41,811 nt of DNA, taken from assembly GCA_947569245.1 (NCBI GenBank), contig CANORV010000004.1:1-41811 (forward strand). Reading direction: 5' to 3'. Positions 28,754 to 40,498 of this stretch are shown in pieces; position 1 is the first letter of the stretch; each line of letters starts with the position of its first letter. The position numbers and the translations under genes were made by a program. The notes under the pieces were generated by a model. The model was not told the origin of the DNA. It saw nothing but the letters and a program-made list of their open reading frames with translations, and did no database searches. This DNA is from an uncultured Mycoplasmatota bacterium (GTDB lineage Bacteria; Bacillota_I; Bacilli_A; RF39; UBA660).

Positions 28754-29491
28754 ATGGTAAATTTTATCTTATATGAAGATAGCAAAGAATTTAGAAGGAT
28801 GTATTCTGATATAATTTTTAAAGTTTTAGGAGATGCAACAGATGCCTATAGAATTATAGAAATACCTAAGTACACTAACAGTACAATGTGTAGTTTAAAG
28901 AATATAGTGGGTAAGAAGATATTTATAATTGATATTGAGGTGCCAGGAAAATCAGGTCTAGATTTGGCTAGGGATATAAGAAACTCAGGTGATTGGAGCA
29001 GTCAGTTAATTATAGTTACATCACATGACAAGATGATATCATGGAATTTTCACAAAAGAATGTTAATGTTAGATTTAATATCTAAGTTTTATGAGTGTGA
29101 AGAAAATTTAAAAGAGTCAATTAAATTGGCCTTTGAAATCCAAACTTCCGAAGAAGCTTTTAAATTCCATCAAGGTGGAGAAATTTATAGGATACCTTAT
29201 CAAGATATCATGTATATTGAAAAAAATCCAGAAAGTTATTGTTCGACAATTGTAACAAAAGAAAGAGAAATAGAAATATCTCAGGATTTAAGTACTATTA
29301 TGAATCAATTAGGAACAGATCCTAGATTCTTTAGATCACATAGAAGTTGTATAATAAATACATTTAACGTAAAAAATATCGATTTAGTTGCAGGAGTAAT
29401 TAAATTTGAAAATAGAGAAACTTACCTTTTATCACGAAGCAAAAAGAAAGAGTTAAAAGAAAAAATGTGTGGAGATAAGTTAAAAGTATAA
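28754..29491 (+). CDS. AgrA-like LytTR response regulator
   Basis: Response regulator of an agr-type quorum-sensing system. An N-terminal receiver domain starts VNFILYEDSKEFRRMYSDI; the phospho-acceptor Asp is in IFIIDIEVPGKSGLDLA, about residue 57. The C-terminal LytTR DNA-binding domain includes IPYQDIMYIEKNPESYC and FFRSHRSCIINTFNV. About 245 aa. ATG 28754 follows AAAGGAGAG and opens the receiver domain; an upstream in-frame ATG at 28709 lies in the tagO terminator. The kinase gene follows after 21 bp. Confidence 0.9.
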   Translation: MVNFILYEDSKEFRRMYSDIIFKVLGDATDAYRIIEIPKYTNSTMCSLKNIVGKKIFIIDIEVPGKSGLDLARDIRNSGDWSSQLIIVTSHDKMISWNFHKRMLMLDLISKFYECEENLKESIKLAFEIQTSEEAFKFHQGGEIYRIPYQDIMYIEKNPESYCSTIVTKEREIEISQDLSTIMNQLGTDPRFFRSHRSCIINTFNVKNIDLVAGVIKFENRETYLLSRSKKKELKEKMCGDKLKV

Positions 29492-29512: not shown

Positions 29513-30823
29513 ATGGAGCCTAAGGAAATAATAGAATTAGTAATATGTGGAATAATTAGTATGTTGATAATAATTTCTATTGGAAATCATATATATAAAG
29601 ATAACTATAAAAAGTTATCGTACATTGATATTTTGATTTTATTAGCAATGGTCTCTATAATTATAATAAATAGTATTGTGTTAGATTCTATTGTAAAATT
29701 ATTAACTACATATATAACAGCCTTTGTAGCATACAAAGTGTTATATAAAACAAATACAAATAAATTGCTTATAGGATCACTTTACACACTTGGAATAATA
29801 GCAGCAAGTGAGGGTCTGATTGCAATACTAATTTCTATACCAGGTATAAATGCATTATCAAACAATATTATATTATTAAATTTATCAATATTAATAGTAG
29901 CAACAATAATTGCTAAAAAAATAAGCATAGATATTACATATTTATCAAGTAAAATGAGATTAAATACAAATTATTATGTAATTGGTATAATAATTTGTAT
30001 TCTATGTATGATTGTTATAATTGTATTTAGATTTAAAGAAAATAGTTTTGTGATTAGTTATGAGATAATAACCAATTCGGTATTGGTAGTTTTATTATTT
30101 GTTGTAGGTATAATAATAGAAAATGACAGAAAAATATCTGATAAGTTGCAAGAAAAATATACTGATCTAGCCAAATATACTAAACAGAGTGAAAATCTTA
30201 TAGATATCTATAGAATTGAGCGTCATGAAAATAAGAATCAATTGATAATTATTAAAAATATGATAGAGCAAAATAATCCAAAAACAATTGAATATATTGA
30301 TAATTTGCTAAATATAAAAAGTAAACAAATAAATAACGGCTTCATATGTGATTTACAATATCTAAATATTCCTGGATTAAAAGGATTTGTTAATTATAAA
30401 TTACAAGAAATGAAAGATTTAGGAATAAACATAGAATTAACAATTAGTAAGGATGTTTCAAATTTTAAATATAACAAGTTTTCTATAAAGGAAGAAGATG
30501 AATTATATAATTTAATTGGCATTTATATTGATAATGCTAAAGAAGCATCCCTTGATTCTAAAGAAAAAATCGTAGCAATTAATATATATAAAGATAAGAA
30601 GAAAATGGTAATAGAAATAGCTAATACCTATGATGAAAGTGTAGAAATTTATAATAATAGTGGTAATATAGTTAGTACCAAAGGATATGGACATGGCTAT
30701 GGATTAAAGATAGCTAACTCTATAATTAATAAAAGTAAAATATATTCAGTAAAAACAGAAGTAAGAAATGGTTTCTTTTGTCAAAGGTTGATGATAACTG
30801 AACAAAAAAAGAGAGATAAATAA
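29513..30823 (+). CDS. AgrC-like sensor histidine kinase (GHKL)
   Basis: Membrane receptor for the autoinducing peptide. Residues 1-200 are six or so membrane helices without an extracellular domain, as in AgrC. A coiled-coil linker leads to the dimerisation/H-box IYRIERHENKNQLIIIKNM with the phospho-accepting His at about residue 240. The GHKL ATPase has the N box LIGIYIDNAKEAS and the G box KGYGHGYGLKIANSI. 436 aa. It converges on the leftward agrD/agrB pair 14 bp away. Confidence 0.9.
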   Translation: MEPKEIIELVICGIISMLIIISIGNHIYKDNYKKLSYIDILILLAMVSIIIINSIVLDSIVKLLTTYITAFVAYKVLYKTNTNKLLIGSLYTLGIIAASEGLIAILISIPGINALSNNIILLNLSILIVATIIAKKISIDITYLSSKMRLNTNYYVIGIIICILCMIVIIVFRFKENSFVISYEIITNSVLVVLLFVVGIIIENDRKISDKLQEKYTDLAKYTKQSENLIDIYRIERHENKNQLIIIKNMIEQNNPKTIEYIDNLLNIKSKQINNGFICDLQYLNIPGLKGFVNYKLQEMKDLGINIELTISKDVSNFKYNKFSIKEEDELYNLIGIYIDNAKEASLDSKEKIVAINIYKDKKKMVIEIANTYDESVEIYNNSGNIVSTKGYGHGYGLKIANSIINKSKIYSVKTEVRNGFFCQRLMITEQKKRDK

Positions 30824-30835
30824 ATCTCTCTAATA
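30803..30835 (-). terminator. hairpin terminator between agrC and agrD
   Basis: AGAGAGAT (30810-30817) pairs with ATCTCTCT (30824-30831); the agrC stop codon is in the loop. A run of A on the left becomes the T-tract for leftward transcripts, so it terminates agrBD. It could also slow the agrC transcript. Confidence 0.7.
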
Positions 30836-30837
30836 AA

Positions 30838-30951
30838 CTAATCAATATAAAACTCAGGTTCATCAATTACAAGTAACAAACATCCCATAGAACAGAACTG
30901 AGCAACATACAAGCTTCCAACAGCTAAAACTGTAGCAAATAACTTTTTCAA
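30838..30951 (-). CDS. agrD: AgrD-like autoinducing peptide precursor, 37 aa
   Basis: Small gene found by reading the minus strand between agrC and agrB. Start TTG 30951 follows GGAGG by 7 nt. The product starts with an amphipathic leader (MKKLFATVLAVGSLYV), then AQFCSMG, a Cys-led hydrophobic stretch CLLLV, and an acidic tail IDEPEFYID. This is the AgrD layout; clostridial AgrDs have a Cys-led five-residue thiolactone ring followed by an acidic Pro-containing tail. The mature ring is predicted as CLLLV (Cys24); Cys20 is a second candidate. It lies 33 bp after agrB on the same strand. Confidence 0.85.
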   Translation of the reverse strand: MKKLFATVLAVGSLYVAQFCSMGCLLLVIDEPEFYID

Positions 30952-30984
30952 ATTAATATCCTCCATATATCATATTCAGGTAAT

Positions 30985-31596
30985 TTAAACGGTACTAACA
31001 ATATACTTAATATAATTATTATAAGGTAATTTAAATAATTTATATATTAAAGGGTTAGTTAGTAAAGCTTCAATTATCATAGCAAATAATAGTGTATTTA
31101 CTAAGAAGTTATTATTAATTATCATGCTAAGTAGTAAATAAGTAATACCAATTATACAAGTTAAGACTTTATAGATAAGTCTTTTCTTTTTGTTTTTTAA
31201 TGGTCTTTTAATTGTATCAGCTGGTGCATGAAAATAAAGGTTTATTAAGCATAATATTTCTAAACATATAACTATGTACCTAGGAATTGTTATATGTAAG
31301 CATAATAATGGGCAGCCAATAAAAATTAAACTAGATGAAACTAAACACATCCAACTTTTTGAAGCATGTAATCCAAATCCAGTAAATCTCAAAATATTGA
31401 AAAAAAATAACAAAATCAAAGTTTCCTTTAGTATACCAAGAATAAATGATACAAAAAAGATAACTATAATTTTAGTAATTGATAAATATATAGCTTCAAT
31501 ACCATATCTAATCTTATCAATAGTTCTCTCATCATATTCAGGATAAAACTCTTTTACTAACGATAACAATTTACTAATCAATAATTTTTTAATCAT
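30985..31596 (-). CDS. agrB: AgrB-like membrane peptidase
   Basis: Processes AgrD: removes the acidic tail and closes the thiolactone. 203 residues with about five membrane helices. The catalytic pair is visible as His in RFTGFGLHA and Cys seven residues later in SKSWMC, the same His-to-Cys spacing as H77/C84 of S. aureus AgrB. ATG 31596 follows GGTGG. A minus-strand TATAAT box (31630-31625) lies just upstream. First gene of the leftward agrB-agrD unit. Confidence 0.9.
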   Translation of the reverse strand: MIKKLLISKLLSLVKEFYPEYDERTIDKIRYGIEAIYLSITKIIVIFFVSFILGILKETLILLFFFNILRFTGFGLHASKSWMCLVSSSLIFIGCPLLCLHITIPRYIVICLEILCLINLYFHAPADTIKRPLKNKKKRLIYKVLTCIIGITYLLLSMIINNNFLVNTLLFAMIIEALLTNPLIYKLFKLPYNNYIKYIVSTV

Positions 31597-31630: not shown

Positions 31631-31720
31631 CATCCAATTATTACCTATAAAATAAAAATACAAGAAAATGTGTTAAAATCGATAATTTTGACATAGAAAC
31701 ACACCATGAGTAAACAAAAT

Positions 31721-31740
31721 TACCAAAAAATACCAAAAAA
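31721..31740. repeat. direct repeat of a 10-mer between agrB and csp, possible regulator site
   Basis: TACCAAAAAA occurs twice back to back. It lies 125-144 bp upstream of agrB, on the shared 260-bp intergenic region with the cold-shock genes. LytTR regulators bind paired direct repeats, so it is a candidate AgrA target, but the spacing differs from the known sites. Confidence 0.35.
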
Positions 31741-31856
31741 CGACATTTTTTCAATAAAATATAATGGCATATAAATAATTTGATATCATAAAAACGTGCA
31801 CGAAAATGGAGGTCTCAAATATGATAGAAACAAAAAATAAGAGAAGAGAGGAAATT

Positions 31857-32081
31857 ATGGTAGGAAAAGTTAAGTGGTTTGATGATAAAAAGGGTTATGG
31901 ATTTATCGAATATAGTAAGGAAGAAGATATCTTCGTGCACTATTCATCAATCAAACAAAATGGTCATAAAACATTAGTAGAGGGCCAATTAGTTGAATTT
32001 AGTTTATTAGAAACTACTAAAGGACTACAAGCTTTAGAAGTATCAGTAATCAAAGATTGTGTTCCAACTAGTACAAACTAA
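31857..32081 (+). CDS. cold-shock domain protein (first of two)
   Basis: CspA-type single-strand nucleic-acid binding protein. RNP-1 is KGYGFIEY and RNP-2 is DIFVHYSSI; it starts MVGKVKWFDD, 74 aa. ATG 31857 fits the family length and has AGAGGAAA before it. An in-frame ATG at 31821 with a stronger GGAGG would add 12 charged residues (MIETKNKRREEI) and may be the real start. Paralogue of the next gene, about 90 bp away. Confidence 0.9.
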   Translation: MVGKVKWFDDKKGYGFIEYSKEEDIFVHYSSIKQNGHKTLVEGQLVEFSLLETTKGLQALEVSVIKDCVPTSTN

Positions 32082-32170: not shown

Positions 32171-32389
32171 GTGACAGGGCGTGTAAAGTGGTTCAATAAT
32201 GAAAAAGGATATGGATTTATTGAATATACAGAAAACGAAGATATCTTTGTTCATTATTCTACTATCAAACAAGAAGGTTATAAGACGTTATCAGAAGGAC
32301 AAGTAGTAGAATTCACACTTTTAGAAACAATGAAGGGTCTTCAAGCACTAGATGTAAAAGTAGTAAAAGATTTAGTAACTACCAAATAA
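32171..32389 (+). CDS. cold-shock domain protein (second of two)
   Basis: 72-residue Csp with RNP-1 KGYGFIEY and RNP-2 DIFVHYSTI; very similar to the first copy along its full length, implying tandem duplication. Start GTG 32171 follows GAGAGGTGA at good spacing. TATACT at 32141-32146 could be its -10. A terminator overlaps the end, so the pair ends here. Confidence 0.92.
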
Positions 32390-32402
32390 GGTAGTTTTTT
32401 TC
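32377..32402 (+). terminator. terminator of the cold-shock genes
   Basis: AACTACC (32377-32383) and GGTAGTT (32390-32396) close a loop that contains the stop codon, followed by a T run. Confidence 0.85.
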
Positions 32403-32440: not shown

Positions 32441-32977
32441 ATGAATATTTCCTTAAGAGGAGACAAAGTTACTATTACTAAAGCTATGGAAGAGTATGCT
32501 ACTGAGAAGCTATCAAAGCTAAATAAGTATATTGAAAAACCAGAGTCAGTAAAAGTATCTATCATAGTAAAAGTAAATAAGGATTTACATAAGGTAGAAG
32601 TAACAATGCCACTTAAATCACTAATTTTAAGAGCAGAGGAAGAAAGAGAAGATTTCTATTCTGCAATTGATGTTGTTTTAGACAAGTTAGAAAGACAAAT
32701 TAGAAAGAATAAAACGCGTTTGTCATCAAAGAAGATGAAAGATAAAAAGGAATTTGTCTATGCATACATTGAAGATATCGAAAAAATGGAAGAATCTGAT
32801 GAGAAAGTAGTGAAAAGAAAGAAAATAGAAGTAAAACCAATGGATGAAGAAGAAGCAATTCTTCAAATGGAATTACTTGGTCATCAATTCTACTTATACA
32901 AAGATATAGAAACTAATCAACCAACGGTTGTATATAAGAGAAAAGATGGTAACTATGGAATTATAGAGGCTGAATAA
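32441..32977 (+). CDS. hpf: ribosome hibernation promoting factor, long form
   Basis: Binds idle ribosomes and, in the long form, joins two 70S into 100S. The N-terminal S30AE domain (1-105) starts MNISLRGDKVTITKAMEEYATEKL. The C-terminal dimerisation domain begins with VKRKKIEVKPMDEEEAILQM and ends VVYKRKDGNYGIIE. 178 aa, as in Bacilli. It sits immediately before secA, the conserved order. Confidence 0.95.
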   Translation: MNISLRGDKVTITKAMEEYATEKLSKLNKYIEKPESVKVSIIVKVNKDLHKVEVTMPLKSLILRAEEEREDFYSAIDVVLDKLERQIRKNKTRLSSKKMKDKKEFVYAYIEDIEKMEESDEKVVKRKKIEVKPMDEEEAILQMELLGHQFYLYKDIETNQPTVVYKRKDGNYGIIEAE

Positions 32978-36243: not shown

Positions 36244-36837
36244 ATGGATTATAAATCAAAAATTTTAAAAATTGCAGATGATAATAATGGATATATTACT
36301 ACAAAAGATGTTGTTAATAAAGGCATCCCTAAAATTTATTTAACTAATTTATTTAAAGAAGGAAAACTTGTTAGGGTAAGTAGAGGATTTTATATGTTAG
36401 TGGATTGTTTCGAAGATGATTATTATAAAATTCAACTCTCTAATTCTGATGCTGTATTTTCTTTAGAAACCGCTTTATATTTATATAATTATTCTAATAG
36501 AGTTCCAACGAAATATTATGTGTCTGTTCCGTCAAATTATGGTGGAAATCTCTTGAAAAATAAAAATGTTCAGTTATTATATACAAAAAAAGAATGGCTT
36601 CTTTTAGGTGTTATTGAAATTACTTCTCCATTCGGACTTCCTATTAAAGTTTATGATAGAGATAGAACGATTTGTGATATTATTAAAAATAAAGATAGAG
36701 TTGACCCTGAAATATTTAGTGAAGCTATGAAGCAATATATAAGATCAAAAGAAAAAAATATTACTAATCTTTTTGTTTATGCCAAAAAATTAAATATTGA
36801 AGATATTGTAAGAAATTTACTAGAGGTAATGTTATGA
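36244..36837 (+). CDS. abiEi: AbiEi-family antitoxin / autorepressor
   Basis: Antitoxin of a type IV toxin-antitoxin system linked to abortive phage infection. The 197-residue protein has an N-terminal winged helix (about 1-55: YITTKDVVNKGIPKIYLTNLF then LVRVSRGFYML) and a C-terminal antitoxin domain (FSLETALYLYNYSNRVP; VYDRDRTICDIIKNKDRVDP). These are typical AbiEi features. It overlaps the toxin gene by 4 bp (ATGA). The operator palindrome lies just upstream. Confidence 0.93.
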   Translation: MDYKSKILKIADDNNGYITTKDVVNKGIPKIYLTNLFKEGKLVRVSRGFYMLVDCFEDDYYKIQLSNSDAVFSLETALYLYNYSNRVPTKYYVSVPSNYGGNLLKNKNVQLLYTKKEWLLLGVIEITSPFGLPIKVYDRDRTICDIIKNKDRVDPEIFSEAMKQYIRSKEKNITNLFVYAKKLNIEDIVRNLLEVML

Positions 36838-37688
36838 TAACTAGTGCAAAATTGAAAAATATAGTATCTAAAAAGTCTCTTGGCGATAACACAATATCAG
36901 CACAATTGTATCAAATGTTCTTTTTTGAACGTATCTTAGAAAGAATCTCTATTAGTAGATATAGGAATAATATAATTTTAAAAGGAGGCTTGCTTTTATC
37001 TTCAATTATTGGTGAAGATATGAGAACAACAAAAGATATGGATGCAACCTTAAAAAGTGTTTTATTAGAAAGGTCAAACATTTTAAATATAATGAATGAA
37101 ATACTAGCAATTCCTTTTAATGATAGTGTCAAATTTGAAATAGTAGATATTAAAGATATAAGAGAAGAAGCTGAATATGGTGGTTTTAAAATCAATATTG
37201 TTGGTATGTTAGAAAAACTAAGAGTTAATATGTTTGTTGAATTTACAACGGGAGATAAAATAACTCCTAAAGAAATAGATTATAATTATAACTCTATATT
37301 TGAAGATAAAAAAATACCAATATTAGCATATACAATTGAGACAATTTTAGCAGAAAAATTTGAAACTATAATTAGTAGAAGTATTGCAAATACTAGATTA
37401 AAAGATTTTTACGACGTATATATTTTAATGTCAAATTATAAAGAGATAATTTCCAATGATGTGTTAGTAGAAGCTATTAAAAACACATTTAGAAAAAGAG
37501 AAACTAATATTAATGTTGATAAAATTTCCGATGTTATTTCTCTAATAAAAAATGACAATGTTATGAAACATTATTGGGAAAAATATCAGAGTAAATTTTC
37601 TTTTGCTCAAGGAATTAATTATAATGAAATTGTGGATAAATTAGATTACATTCTGCTATTATTAGAAAAAGAATTTGTTTCAGTATAG
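36834..37688 (+). CDS. abiEii: AbiEii/AbiGii nucleotidyltransferase toxin
   Basis: Toxin of the AbiE system, a DUF1814 nucleotidyltransferase-fold protein. The nucleotide-binding signature is NIILKGGLLLSSIIG (about 45-59) and the acidic motif is RTTKDMDATL (about 64-73); a later ILAYTIETILAEKFETI and TRLKDFYDVYIL match the conserved C-terminal block. Length 284 is normal and no residues look lost, so the pair appears functional. Family members modify tRNA with nucleotides; which tRNA is not readable here. Only element A carries it. Confidence 0.93.
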   Translation: MITSAKLKNIVSKKSLGDNTISAQLYQMFFFERILERISISRYRNNIILKGGLLLSSIIGEDMRTTKDMDATLKSVLLERSNILNIMNEILAIPFNDSVKFEIVDIKDIREEAEYGGFKINIVGMLEKLRVNMFVEFTTGDKITPKEIDYNYNSIFEDKKIPILAYTIETILAEKFETIISRSIANTRLKDFYDVYILMSNYKEIISNDVLVEAIKNTFRKRETNINVDKISDVISLIKNDNVMKHYWEKYQSKFSFAQGINYNEIVDKLDYILLLLEKEFVSV

Positions 37689-38212: not shown

Positions 38213-39484
38213 GTGTCGAAAGTAAGTGTTCGTAAAAGAGGAGATGTTTTTCAATATCGTTTTGAAATTGCATCTCAAGAAGGAAAAAGAAAATATATTA
38301 GCAAGTCTGGATTTAAAACTAAACCAGAAGCAGAAAGAGCAGGTGTTAAAGCTCTTAATGAATATTTAGAAACAGGTCATAGCTTTAAACCATCAGAAAT
38401 TTCATATAGTGATTATTTAGATTATTGGATGCAAGAGTATTGTTTTATAAATCTAAAACACCGTACTATTGAAACATACAAATATATTATTAAGAATCAC
38501 TTAAAACCTAGATTAGGAATGTATAGAATATCTCAGATTACTACAGCAACAATACAGGAAGTAATAAATGATATTTACGTTGAAAGAGGATTTGCTAAGA
38601 GTTATATGAAAAATATACTCAAGGTTATAAAATCATCATTTGATTATGCTGCTGAGATAGTAAAGTTTATAAAATATGATCCATCAATAAAGGTAAGAGT
38701 ACCAAAGTATGATGAACCTGATGAAGATCCAGCACACATTTTTACAAAAGAAGAGATAGAAATAATTTTTAATAGTGTAAAAAATAACCATTGTGTTTAT
38801 TATGCGTTTTTAACCGCATATCATACTGGACTTCGTATATCTGAGGTATTTGGACTAACTTGGGAAGATATAGATTTGGAAAATAAAAAAATTCACGTTA
38901 GAAGAAATATTGTAAAAAAGAATCAAGCTGGAGGTACTAAAAAAAGACACATAAGTGGAAATTCAACAACAGTTTGGTATTACGGGACATGTAAAACAGT
39001 TAATAGTTATCGAATAATAGATATAGGGGATACTTTGGTAAATGCTTAAAAAAAATATAAAGAAGAACAAGAAATATTTAAAGAGATGTATGGTGATATG
39101 TATATGAAACATTACAAAAAAATAGTGGATAATCCATATACAAAAAAACCAGAAACGAAAATAGTTAATGCTTATGCTGAAATTGAAGTTGCATTACCCG
39201 AAGCTCATTTGGTATTTTTAAAAGATAATGGAATATTTGAAGGTACAGATAGTTGTAAATACGCATTCAAAGTAATTCATTACCAATTAGGAATCCCATG
39301 TAGATTTCATGATTTTCGAGATACTCATGCTACAAGATTGATTGAGGCAGGAGCAGATATAAAAGCTGTATCAAAAAGACTGGGGCATAGTACAGTTGAA
39401 TTTACTTACAATATTTACGTAAGAGTTACAACAAAAATGGAGGAAGAAGTTGTTAGTAAGTTTGAGGCTTATGTAGCAGCATAA
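38213..39484 (+). pseudogene. tyrosine recombinase (phage/ICE-type integrase), interrupted by in-frame TAA
   Basis: Reading from GTG 38213 (after AGGAGGAAAAAG), the N-terminal part (SVRKRGDVFQYRF, then a SAM-like core-binding domain) leads to the catalytic Arg in TGLRISEVFGLTWED. A TAA at 39047-39049 stops it after 278 residues. The same frame resumes without shift and contains HDFRDTHATRL (HxxR), RLGHSTVEF and the catalytic Tyr in YNIYV. Full length would be about 423 aa. The catalytic C-terminal half is lost unless the stop is read through. Recent nonsense mutation or sequence error are both possible. Confidence 0.88.
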
Positions 39485-39683: not shown

Positions 39684-40498
39684 ATGGTATTTAAAATTGA
39701 GAAAAATAAGAATTATACTGTGATGAGTAATCACCATTTAAGAAATAGGAATTTATCACTAAAAGCTAAAGGATTATTGTCATTTATGTTGTCATTGCCT
39801 GAAGACTGGGATTATTCTTTAAATGGATTAGTTAGTGTCAGTAAAGAAAGTAAAAAAGCAATTCGATCTATACTAAATGAACTGAAAGAAAATGGTTATT
39901 TAGTTGTTGAACAGACTAGAGGAGAAAAAGGACAATATAAATATAATTATATTATTTATGAAGAACCATTAGATATTAAGAAGGAGAAAGATAATCCAGA
40001 TACCCAAAAAGGGAATACCGCTGAAGGAGATGTTGAAAAGGATACCCAAATAAGTACTAATAAACAAAATACTGAAAAAGAAATAGATAAAATAGATAAA
40101 ACCATTCCTCATGAAGAAAAAATCAATTTTAAATCTAGTAAAAAAAAACACACATATTAACAAAAGATATTATTAAACGAAAATATATAAAAAGTAATGA
40201 TATAGAACAAGGAAAATATGATAAATTCTTTAAAAATCTTTTAGAAGAGTATGATTTGGATGATGTGGTTACAATCTTGCATTATGTTATTAAGAGTGTT
40301 AAAAGTAGAGATTTTAGAGATGAGAATGGTAAAAAAATAAATAATAGATTTGGATATTTGAAAAAATCAATATTAGAAAATATAGATAAATTTAAAAATA
40401 ATGAGATTGAGTGGGATGAAGAATTAGGCTGGTTTAAGGAGACAGTAGATAATAGTAATTTATATGAACAAGATAAAGAATTAGACTATGACTACTAA
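39684..40498 (+). pseudogene. replication initiator/DnaD-like protein, frameshifted at an A9 run
   Basis: The N-terminal 145 residues start MVFKIEKNKNYTVMSNHHL with a winged-helix domain (SLKAKGLLSFMLSLPEDWDY; SKKAIRSILNELKENGYL), typical of initiators on mobile elements. At 40140-40148 a run of nine A is followed by an early stop (40158-40160). With one extra A the reading continues as THILTKDIIKRKYIKSNDI and joins a DnaD-like C-terminus (NNRFGYLKKSILENIDKF; EEYDLDDVVTILHYVI) to 40498. Programmed slippage on the A run is possible. Confidence 0.75.

Follow-up and report, generated by a model that had tools for sequence, protein, structure and literature searches.

A predicted agr quorum-sensing system with signal genes head-on to sensor genes, shared by a family of uncultured gut Bacilli

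Should a set of agr-like genes that run head-on into one another be read as a quorum-sensing system, and what accounts for their layout? The question is raised by a locus in a 41,811-nucleotide stretch of DNA from an uncultured Mycoplasmatota bacterium, here called the window. Judged by its gene content, the locus is a genuine agr quorum-sensing system of predicted function, in which the signal-making genes are directed into the signal-sensing genes. AgrB, AgrD, an AgrC-type kinase and a LytTR-containing AgrA lie together, and the collinear B-D-C-A order of the classical agrBDCA operon is absent from the window. On the plus strand, an AgrA-like response regulator with REC and LytTR domains (28754–29491) provides the only LytTR match in its genome, which is 72% complete (LytTR 5.7e-18; REC 4e-4, below cut-off), and its residues D24, D75, T104 and K126 are conserved in the family comparison. 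It is followed by an AgrC-like sensor histidine kinase (29513–30823, plus strand) that matches the NCBIfam AgrC model over nearly its full length (6.2e-10, residues 15–425) and whose H238, N341, G395 and G397 are conserved across the family. The kinase score and that of the regulator against the AgrA model (7e-14) fall below the equivalog cut-offs of models that are Staphylococcus-specific. On the minus strand, agrB (30985–31596, 203 aa; Pfam PF04647 1.1e-30) encodes the active-site stretch H77-A-S-K-S-W-M-C84, numbered as in S. aureus AgrB, with H77 and C84 invariant in 71/71 sequences. Divergent from agrB, in a conserved pairing, is a cold-shock domain gene (csp, 31821–32081, plus strand; PF00313 1.8e-24), followed on the same strand by a second csp copy (32171–32389) with a terminator-like hairpin after it (32377–32396) and by hpf, of the ribosome hibernation factor family (32441–32977; PF16321/PF02482), which belongs to the conserved synteny. 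An earlier note on this DNA had placed every gene on its correct position and strand, and its reading of the AgrB His-x6-Cys spacing and of convergent 3′ ends 14 bp apart, from kinase stop to agrD stop, holds on re-examination. Its contrast with a single agrBDCA transcript is true here but not new, since C. acetobutylicum also has separate agrBD and agrCA units (PMC12312760). Elsewhere in the window, an AbiEi/AbiEii type IV toxin-antitoxin pair lies downstream of secA (36244–37688; PF13338 2.9e-11, PF08843 3.9e-34). A tyrosine integrase occurs in two ORFs (38213–39049 and 39086–39484) beside a helix-turn-helix protein (39684–40160), and the split integrase at 38213–39484 is probably a remnant or a frameshifted integrative element.

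The identification of a signal gene depends on a 37-aa reading frame, MKKLFATVLAVGSLYVAQFCSMGCLLLVIDEPEFYID, on the minus strand (30838–30951), which starts with TTG at 30951 and stops at 30838. A Shine-Dalgarno sequence, GGAGG (30960–30964, minus strand), precedes the TTG by 8 nt and has an equivalent in relatives. An in-frame ATG at 30966 was rejected as the start, as it overlaps the Shine-Dalgarno sequence and relatives begin at the position equivalent to the TTG; GTG or TTG starts also occur in other relatives. Profile searches of the window AgrD against TIGR04223 and PF05931 (Pfam, NCBIfam) were below detection, and annotation based on HMMs would therefore miss agrD, whereas orthologs in relatives match TIGR04223 above its curated cut-off at up to 2.6e-8. 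An orthologous frame, usually with a clear Shine-Dalgarno sequence, is found behind agrB in all family loci that extend far enough; two loci, L032 and L127, where just some 90 bp follow agrB, lack a usable candidate. Aligned on the tail with those of 89 relatives (90 sequences), including MKKLLARVLAILGLLSFTSASTACIIFLMDEPELEFDFE from the same-genus locus L031, the window AgrD fits the pattern of a propeptide encoded beside agrB, with amphipathic leader, Cys (Ser) core and acidic tail. In 40 close pairs, which overlap such that the values are pooled and descriptive, pS was 0.46 vs a pN of 0.19, pN being lower in the tail (0.07) than in the core (0.38). The orthologs that follow agrB in every adequate locus, together with the excess of pS over pN, indicate that the frame is more than a chance occurrence, and by this comparison AgrD is a real gene under purifying selection. 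The 37-codon, TTG-started AgrD of the earlier note is thereby borne out; loss of the frame in relatives that keep AgrB, which the note had named as grounds for refutation, was looked for and the frame was conserved in all adequate loci.

The size of the ring that AgrB would close on this peptide can be approached from the register of the tail. Counted from the proposed cut, the 90 family AgrDs have D+1 in 85, E+2 in 88, P+3 in 82 and P+6 in 79, with a conserved L, M or I at +9, and the residue at -6 is Cys in 73, Thr in 9 and Ser in 4. In S. aureus the ring comprises Cys28 and four further residues, and E34 and L41 are needed for AgrB processing (PMC10482373). Counted after the S. aureus cut these are E+2 and L+9, the register also found in the family tail. 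The two registers agree only if the cut in the family falls one residue further on, which favours a six-residue ring, spanning C24–I29 in the window (CLLLVI; codons 30865–30882, minus strand), where D+1 and E+2 are present and Cys lies at -6. AgrB thus probably cuts after I29, giving CLLLVI|DEPEFYID and a ring one residue larger than the textbook case. The window assignment is less certain than that for the family, as the short window tail (DEPEFYID) lacks P+6 and L+9, as does that of L031, and the assignment leans on the D-E-P anchor and on relatives. The register rules out Cys20 as the ring cysteine. The earlier note had proposed a classical five-residue ring, CLLLV with tail IDEPEFYID, in an otherwise identical system. 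Staphylococci and Listeria generally have five-residue rings (PMC12312760), and in the family the residues at -1 and -2 are equally hydrophobic. However, the C-x4-[DY]-E spacing of such a ring is absent from the window, the fixed D+1/E+2/P+6/L/M/I+9 register matches the S. aureus tail only with six residues, and outgroup AgrDs with the identical E+2/P+6/L+9 tail register have their Cys at -5, so that we regard the smaller ring as unlikely. Thr or Ser replaces the ring Cys in L073, L076, L085, L095, L099, L106, L118, L123, L125 and L126. Three of the Thr/Ser AgrDs have a Cys one residue off and about 10 loci are clearly without a ring Cys; the AgrB His and Cys are kept wherever checked among these loci. 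A Ser or Thr at the ring position implies that these signals would be lactones rather than thiolactones.

The head-on layout extends well beyond the window. AgrB matches were present in 253/386 sampled family genomes, and the surroundings were inspected at about 100 loci from many genera on metagenome-assembled contigs. Family loci with both agrB and a kinase numbered 84: 72 were simple, 6 were truncated where a contig ended, 4 had tandem kinases and 2 were irregular. Two of the 84, L063 and L122, duplicate L039 and L064. In each of the 82 distinct loci, regulator and kinase converge on agrD and agrB, within a conserved block of MreB-TagO-regulator-kinase / agrD-agrB / csp-hpf-secA. This block suggests vertical descent of one arrangement, and the 82/82 count is therefore one ancestral state retained rather than 82 events. 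None of six class-level outgroup loci is convergent: the order is B-(D)-C-A in two and A-C-B in a third, a fourth has a kinase collinear with agrB but a reversed regulator, a fifth shows a collinear regulator alone and the last shows neither kinase nor regulator. Convergent agr is a shared trait of this whole family of uncultured gut Bacilli and no local oddity. No published head-on or convergent agr locus was found in the open-access literature, which is weak evidence of absence. At L046, L073, L101 and L116 one agrBD unit is faced by two tandem AgrC-like kinases. Divergent AgrB-like proteins with His-x6-Cys occupy the same genomic site in L053 (2108–2560) and L054 (5213–6448), where the genes are collinear with csp rather than convergent and have neither a recognisable AgrD nor an AgrC-like kinase match.

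Whether the convergence is itself functional is a separate matter. The earlier note had placed one shared hairpin at the junction and proposed that read-through antisense RNA couples agrBD and agrCA. The hairpin exists (30810–30831, minus strand) and overlaps the last kinase codons; its stem of 8 precedes a TTTTTTG tract on that strand. There is no T-tract in the kinase direction, so the hairpin is the predicted terminator of the agrBD transcript and is not symmetric. The gap of only 14 bp in the window, the frequency of short gaps across the family and a kinase transcript without a T-tract at the hairpin would all suit a functional junction. Family-wide, however, gaps range from -9 to >200 bp (median about 25–30 bp), and a hairpin with T-tracts both ways is found at 15/81 junctions (vs about 2% per strand in shuffled sequences), while 34/81 have no terminator by the criteria of this analysis. 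In compact genomes a short gap between convergent genes is nothing unusual, and Rfam found no conserved RNA element between 28 and 34 kb. Although antisense read-through could occur in the window, the family does not conserve it, and that it should be the point of the arrangement is improbable. The account favoured here is that agrBD lies head-on to agrCA because it is head-to-head with csp, the 3′ convergence being a by-product.

If the system is as predicted, the peptide should be read by the neighbouring kinase. In genus g69, genome G072 has agrBD and a kinase of 419 aa, while in G205 and G299, which showed neither an AgrB match nor a remnant of one (genomes 64–65% complete), the kinase is 265–268 aa, aligns to the G072 kinase only from residue 204 of the latter, and its gene abuts the operator and csp. 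Loss of the sensor along with agrBD, which counts as one event in one genus, suggests that the signal genes are coupled to the kinase sensor. The genome of L150 is a counter-example, being without agrBD and retaining a kinase of 405 aa. The earlier note expected the peptide to vary between strains with AgrB and the sensor; its core does covary with each in the expected direction, though only slightly (partial r ~0.07, p 0.045 for each). A covariation this weak would also be compatible with a cyclic peptide made for another use, such as a bacteriocin, and not as ligand of the kinase. That reading is set against a linkage to an AgrC/AgrA-type pair that is fixed in 82 loci and against the sensor loss in g69, and we consider it very improbable.

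The divergent region between agrB and csp is where a regulator might act. In S. aureus, AgrA drives a divergent pair of promoters, P2 and P3, and the operator repeats there have a period of 21 bp. A two-block motif search in 91 agrB-csp regions returned a LytTR-type direct repeat, TTTnAGACAT at a period of 21 bp, some 120 bp upstream of agrB. Begun at eight gaps, it converged on the identical half-site pair in seven, and of three shuffled controls two gave nothing and one a weaker, unrelated motif. The seeds were not blind, because the repeat had been noticed by eye before modelling, and when near-exact repeats upstream of agrB were scanned for blind, no spacing was enriched; the 21-bp period emerged from the motif model only. 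A genome-wide pattern scan of 386 genomes, a more independent check than the motif model, gave 25 operator sites vs 9 for the reversed pattern. Fourteen of the 25 adjoin agrB. Another five occur in genomes without an AgrB match, a short distance upstream of csp; four of these sites come immediately after a regulator or kinase gene, and the fifth (L156) is close to the end of a contig. The operator-like repeat, carried by many relatives, is read directly from the sequence in other genera. The window has no consensus operator; a weak TACC...GACA block, 21 bp apart and conserved with its congener, lies at the matching distance from agrB and is a candidate AgrA operator (31720–31749, unstranded). 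This deficit, the TTG start and the short tail shared with same-genus L031 could also mark a locus in decay in the lineage of the window, but this is highly doubtful, with all four genes intact, catalytic residues present, same-genus AgrB 69% identical with a conserved active site, and non-ATG starts in other relatives too.

A regulon beyond agr and csp was rejected, as its single sites (G251, G149) fall within the reversed-pattern background. One of the 25 sites lies upstream of an orphan regulator in G149. In G251 an exact copy of the pattern (L144:1501–1530), near background, precedes a sugar transferase, a single case of a possible surface-polysaccharide target. Two sequences, AAGTGGTT and GAAGGGAG, were discarded as regulatory motifs, since they correspond to the start of the csp coding sequence and to the Shine-Dalgarno region before it. 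TTTGTCGAA was discarded as a LytTR site, as it looks like a Spo0A box; it lies right in front of csp, is conserved close upstream of the csp promoter, for example in L105, L103 and L151, and is not clearly present in the window. The genome of the window also encodes, on contig C65, a 122-aa protein consisting of a Spo0A DNA-binding domain alone, with no receiver (L133:1447–1815; PF08769 2.4e-13).

Taken together, gene content, AgrD coding, layout, synteny and tail register, all read from the sequence, make it likely that this is an agr system with a six-residue signal and with AgrA acting between agrB and csp, the head-on layout being secondary. AgrB, through His77 and Cys84, would remove the AgrD tail before D30 and close a six-residue thiolactone on C24. 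A protease encoded elsewhere would trim the leader; the single CPBP/Rce1-type protein matched in the 72% complete genome is a candidate. The exported peptide would be sensed by the AgrC-like kinase, which would phosphorylate the AgrA-like LytTR regulator. We infer ring size and the pairing of peptide with kinase, as well as AgrA binding in the agrB-csp intergenic region, which would raise agrBD leftward as autoinduction and probably also csp rightward, much as at P2 and P3 of S. aureus. Position alone makes csp a candidate target; it is preferred to hpf because a terminator-like site separates the csp genes from hpf.

In its parts the system resembles that of S. aureus, with AgrB H77/C84, an AgrD leader, core and tail with E+2/L+9, an AgrC-like kinase, a LytTR AgrA and a divergent control region beside agrB with operator repeats of 21-bp period (here in the relatives). 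It differs in that agrBD is inverted relative to agrCA, a six-residue ring is predicted and the divergent partner is csp rather than RNAIII. The AIP ring of C. acetobutylicum is likewise of six residues, [CVLVTL] (PMC12312760, PMC10301443). Its separate agrBD and agrCA units are a further likeness, although they lie in one cluster with CA_C0082 nearby, whereas the agrBD unit described here adjoins csp and runs head-on into agrCA. Relatives with Ser or Thr for the ring Cys recall the Ser-lactone AIPs of Staphylococcus pseudintermedius and the Enterococcus faecalis fsr system, although the window itself has Cys, and Thr at that position is absent from the published table (PMC12312760).

Most studies of agr-type signalling concern pathogens; these results extend it to an uncultured, small-genome gut lineage, in about two thirds of the genomes sampled. 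The roughly 90 natural AgrDs, mostly in six-residue register and with Ser/Thr variants included, are a resource for the study of AgrB specificity and ring size. More tentatively, AgrA may control agrBD and csp from one divergent operator family-wide, with signals that are six-residue thiolactones and in some cases Ser/Thr lactones. The claim that a divergent promoter puts a cold-shock protein gene under the control of an agr system is testable; if it is true, quorum sensing in this family would feed straight into an RNA-binding effector, a cold-shock RNA chaperone.
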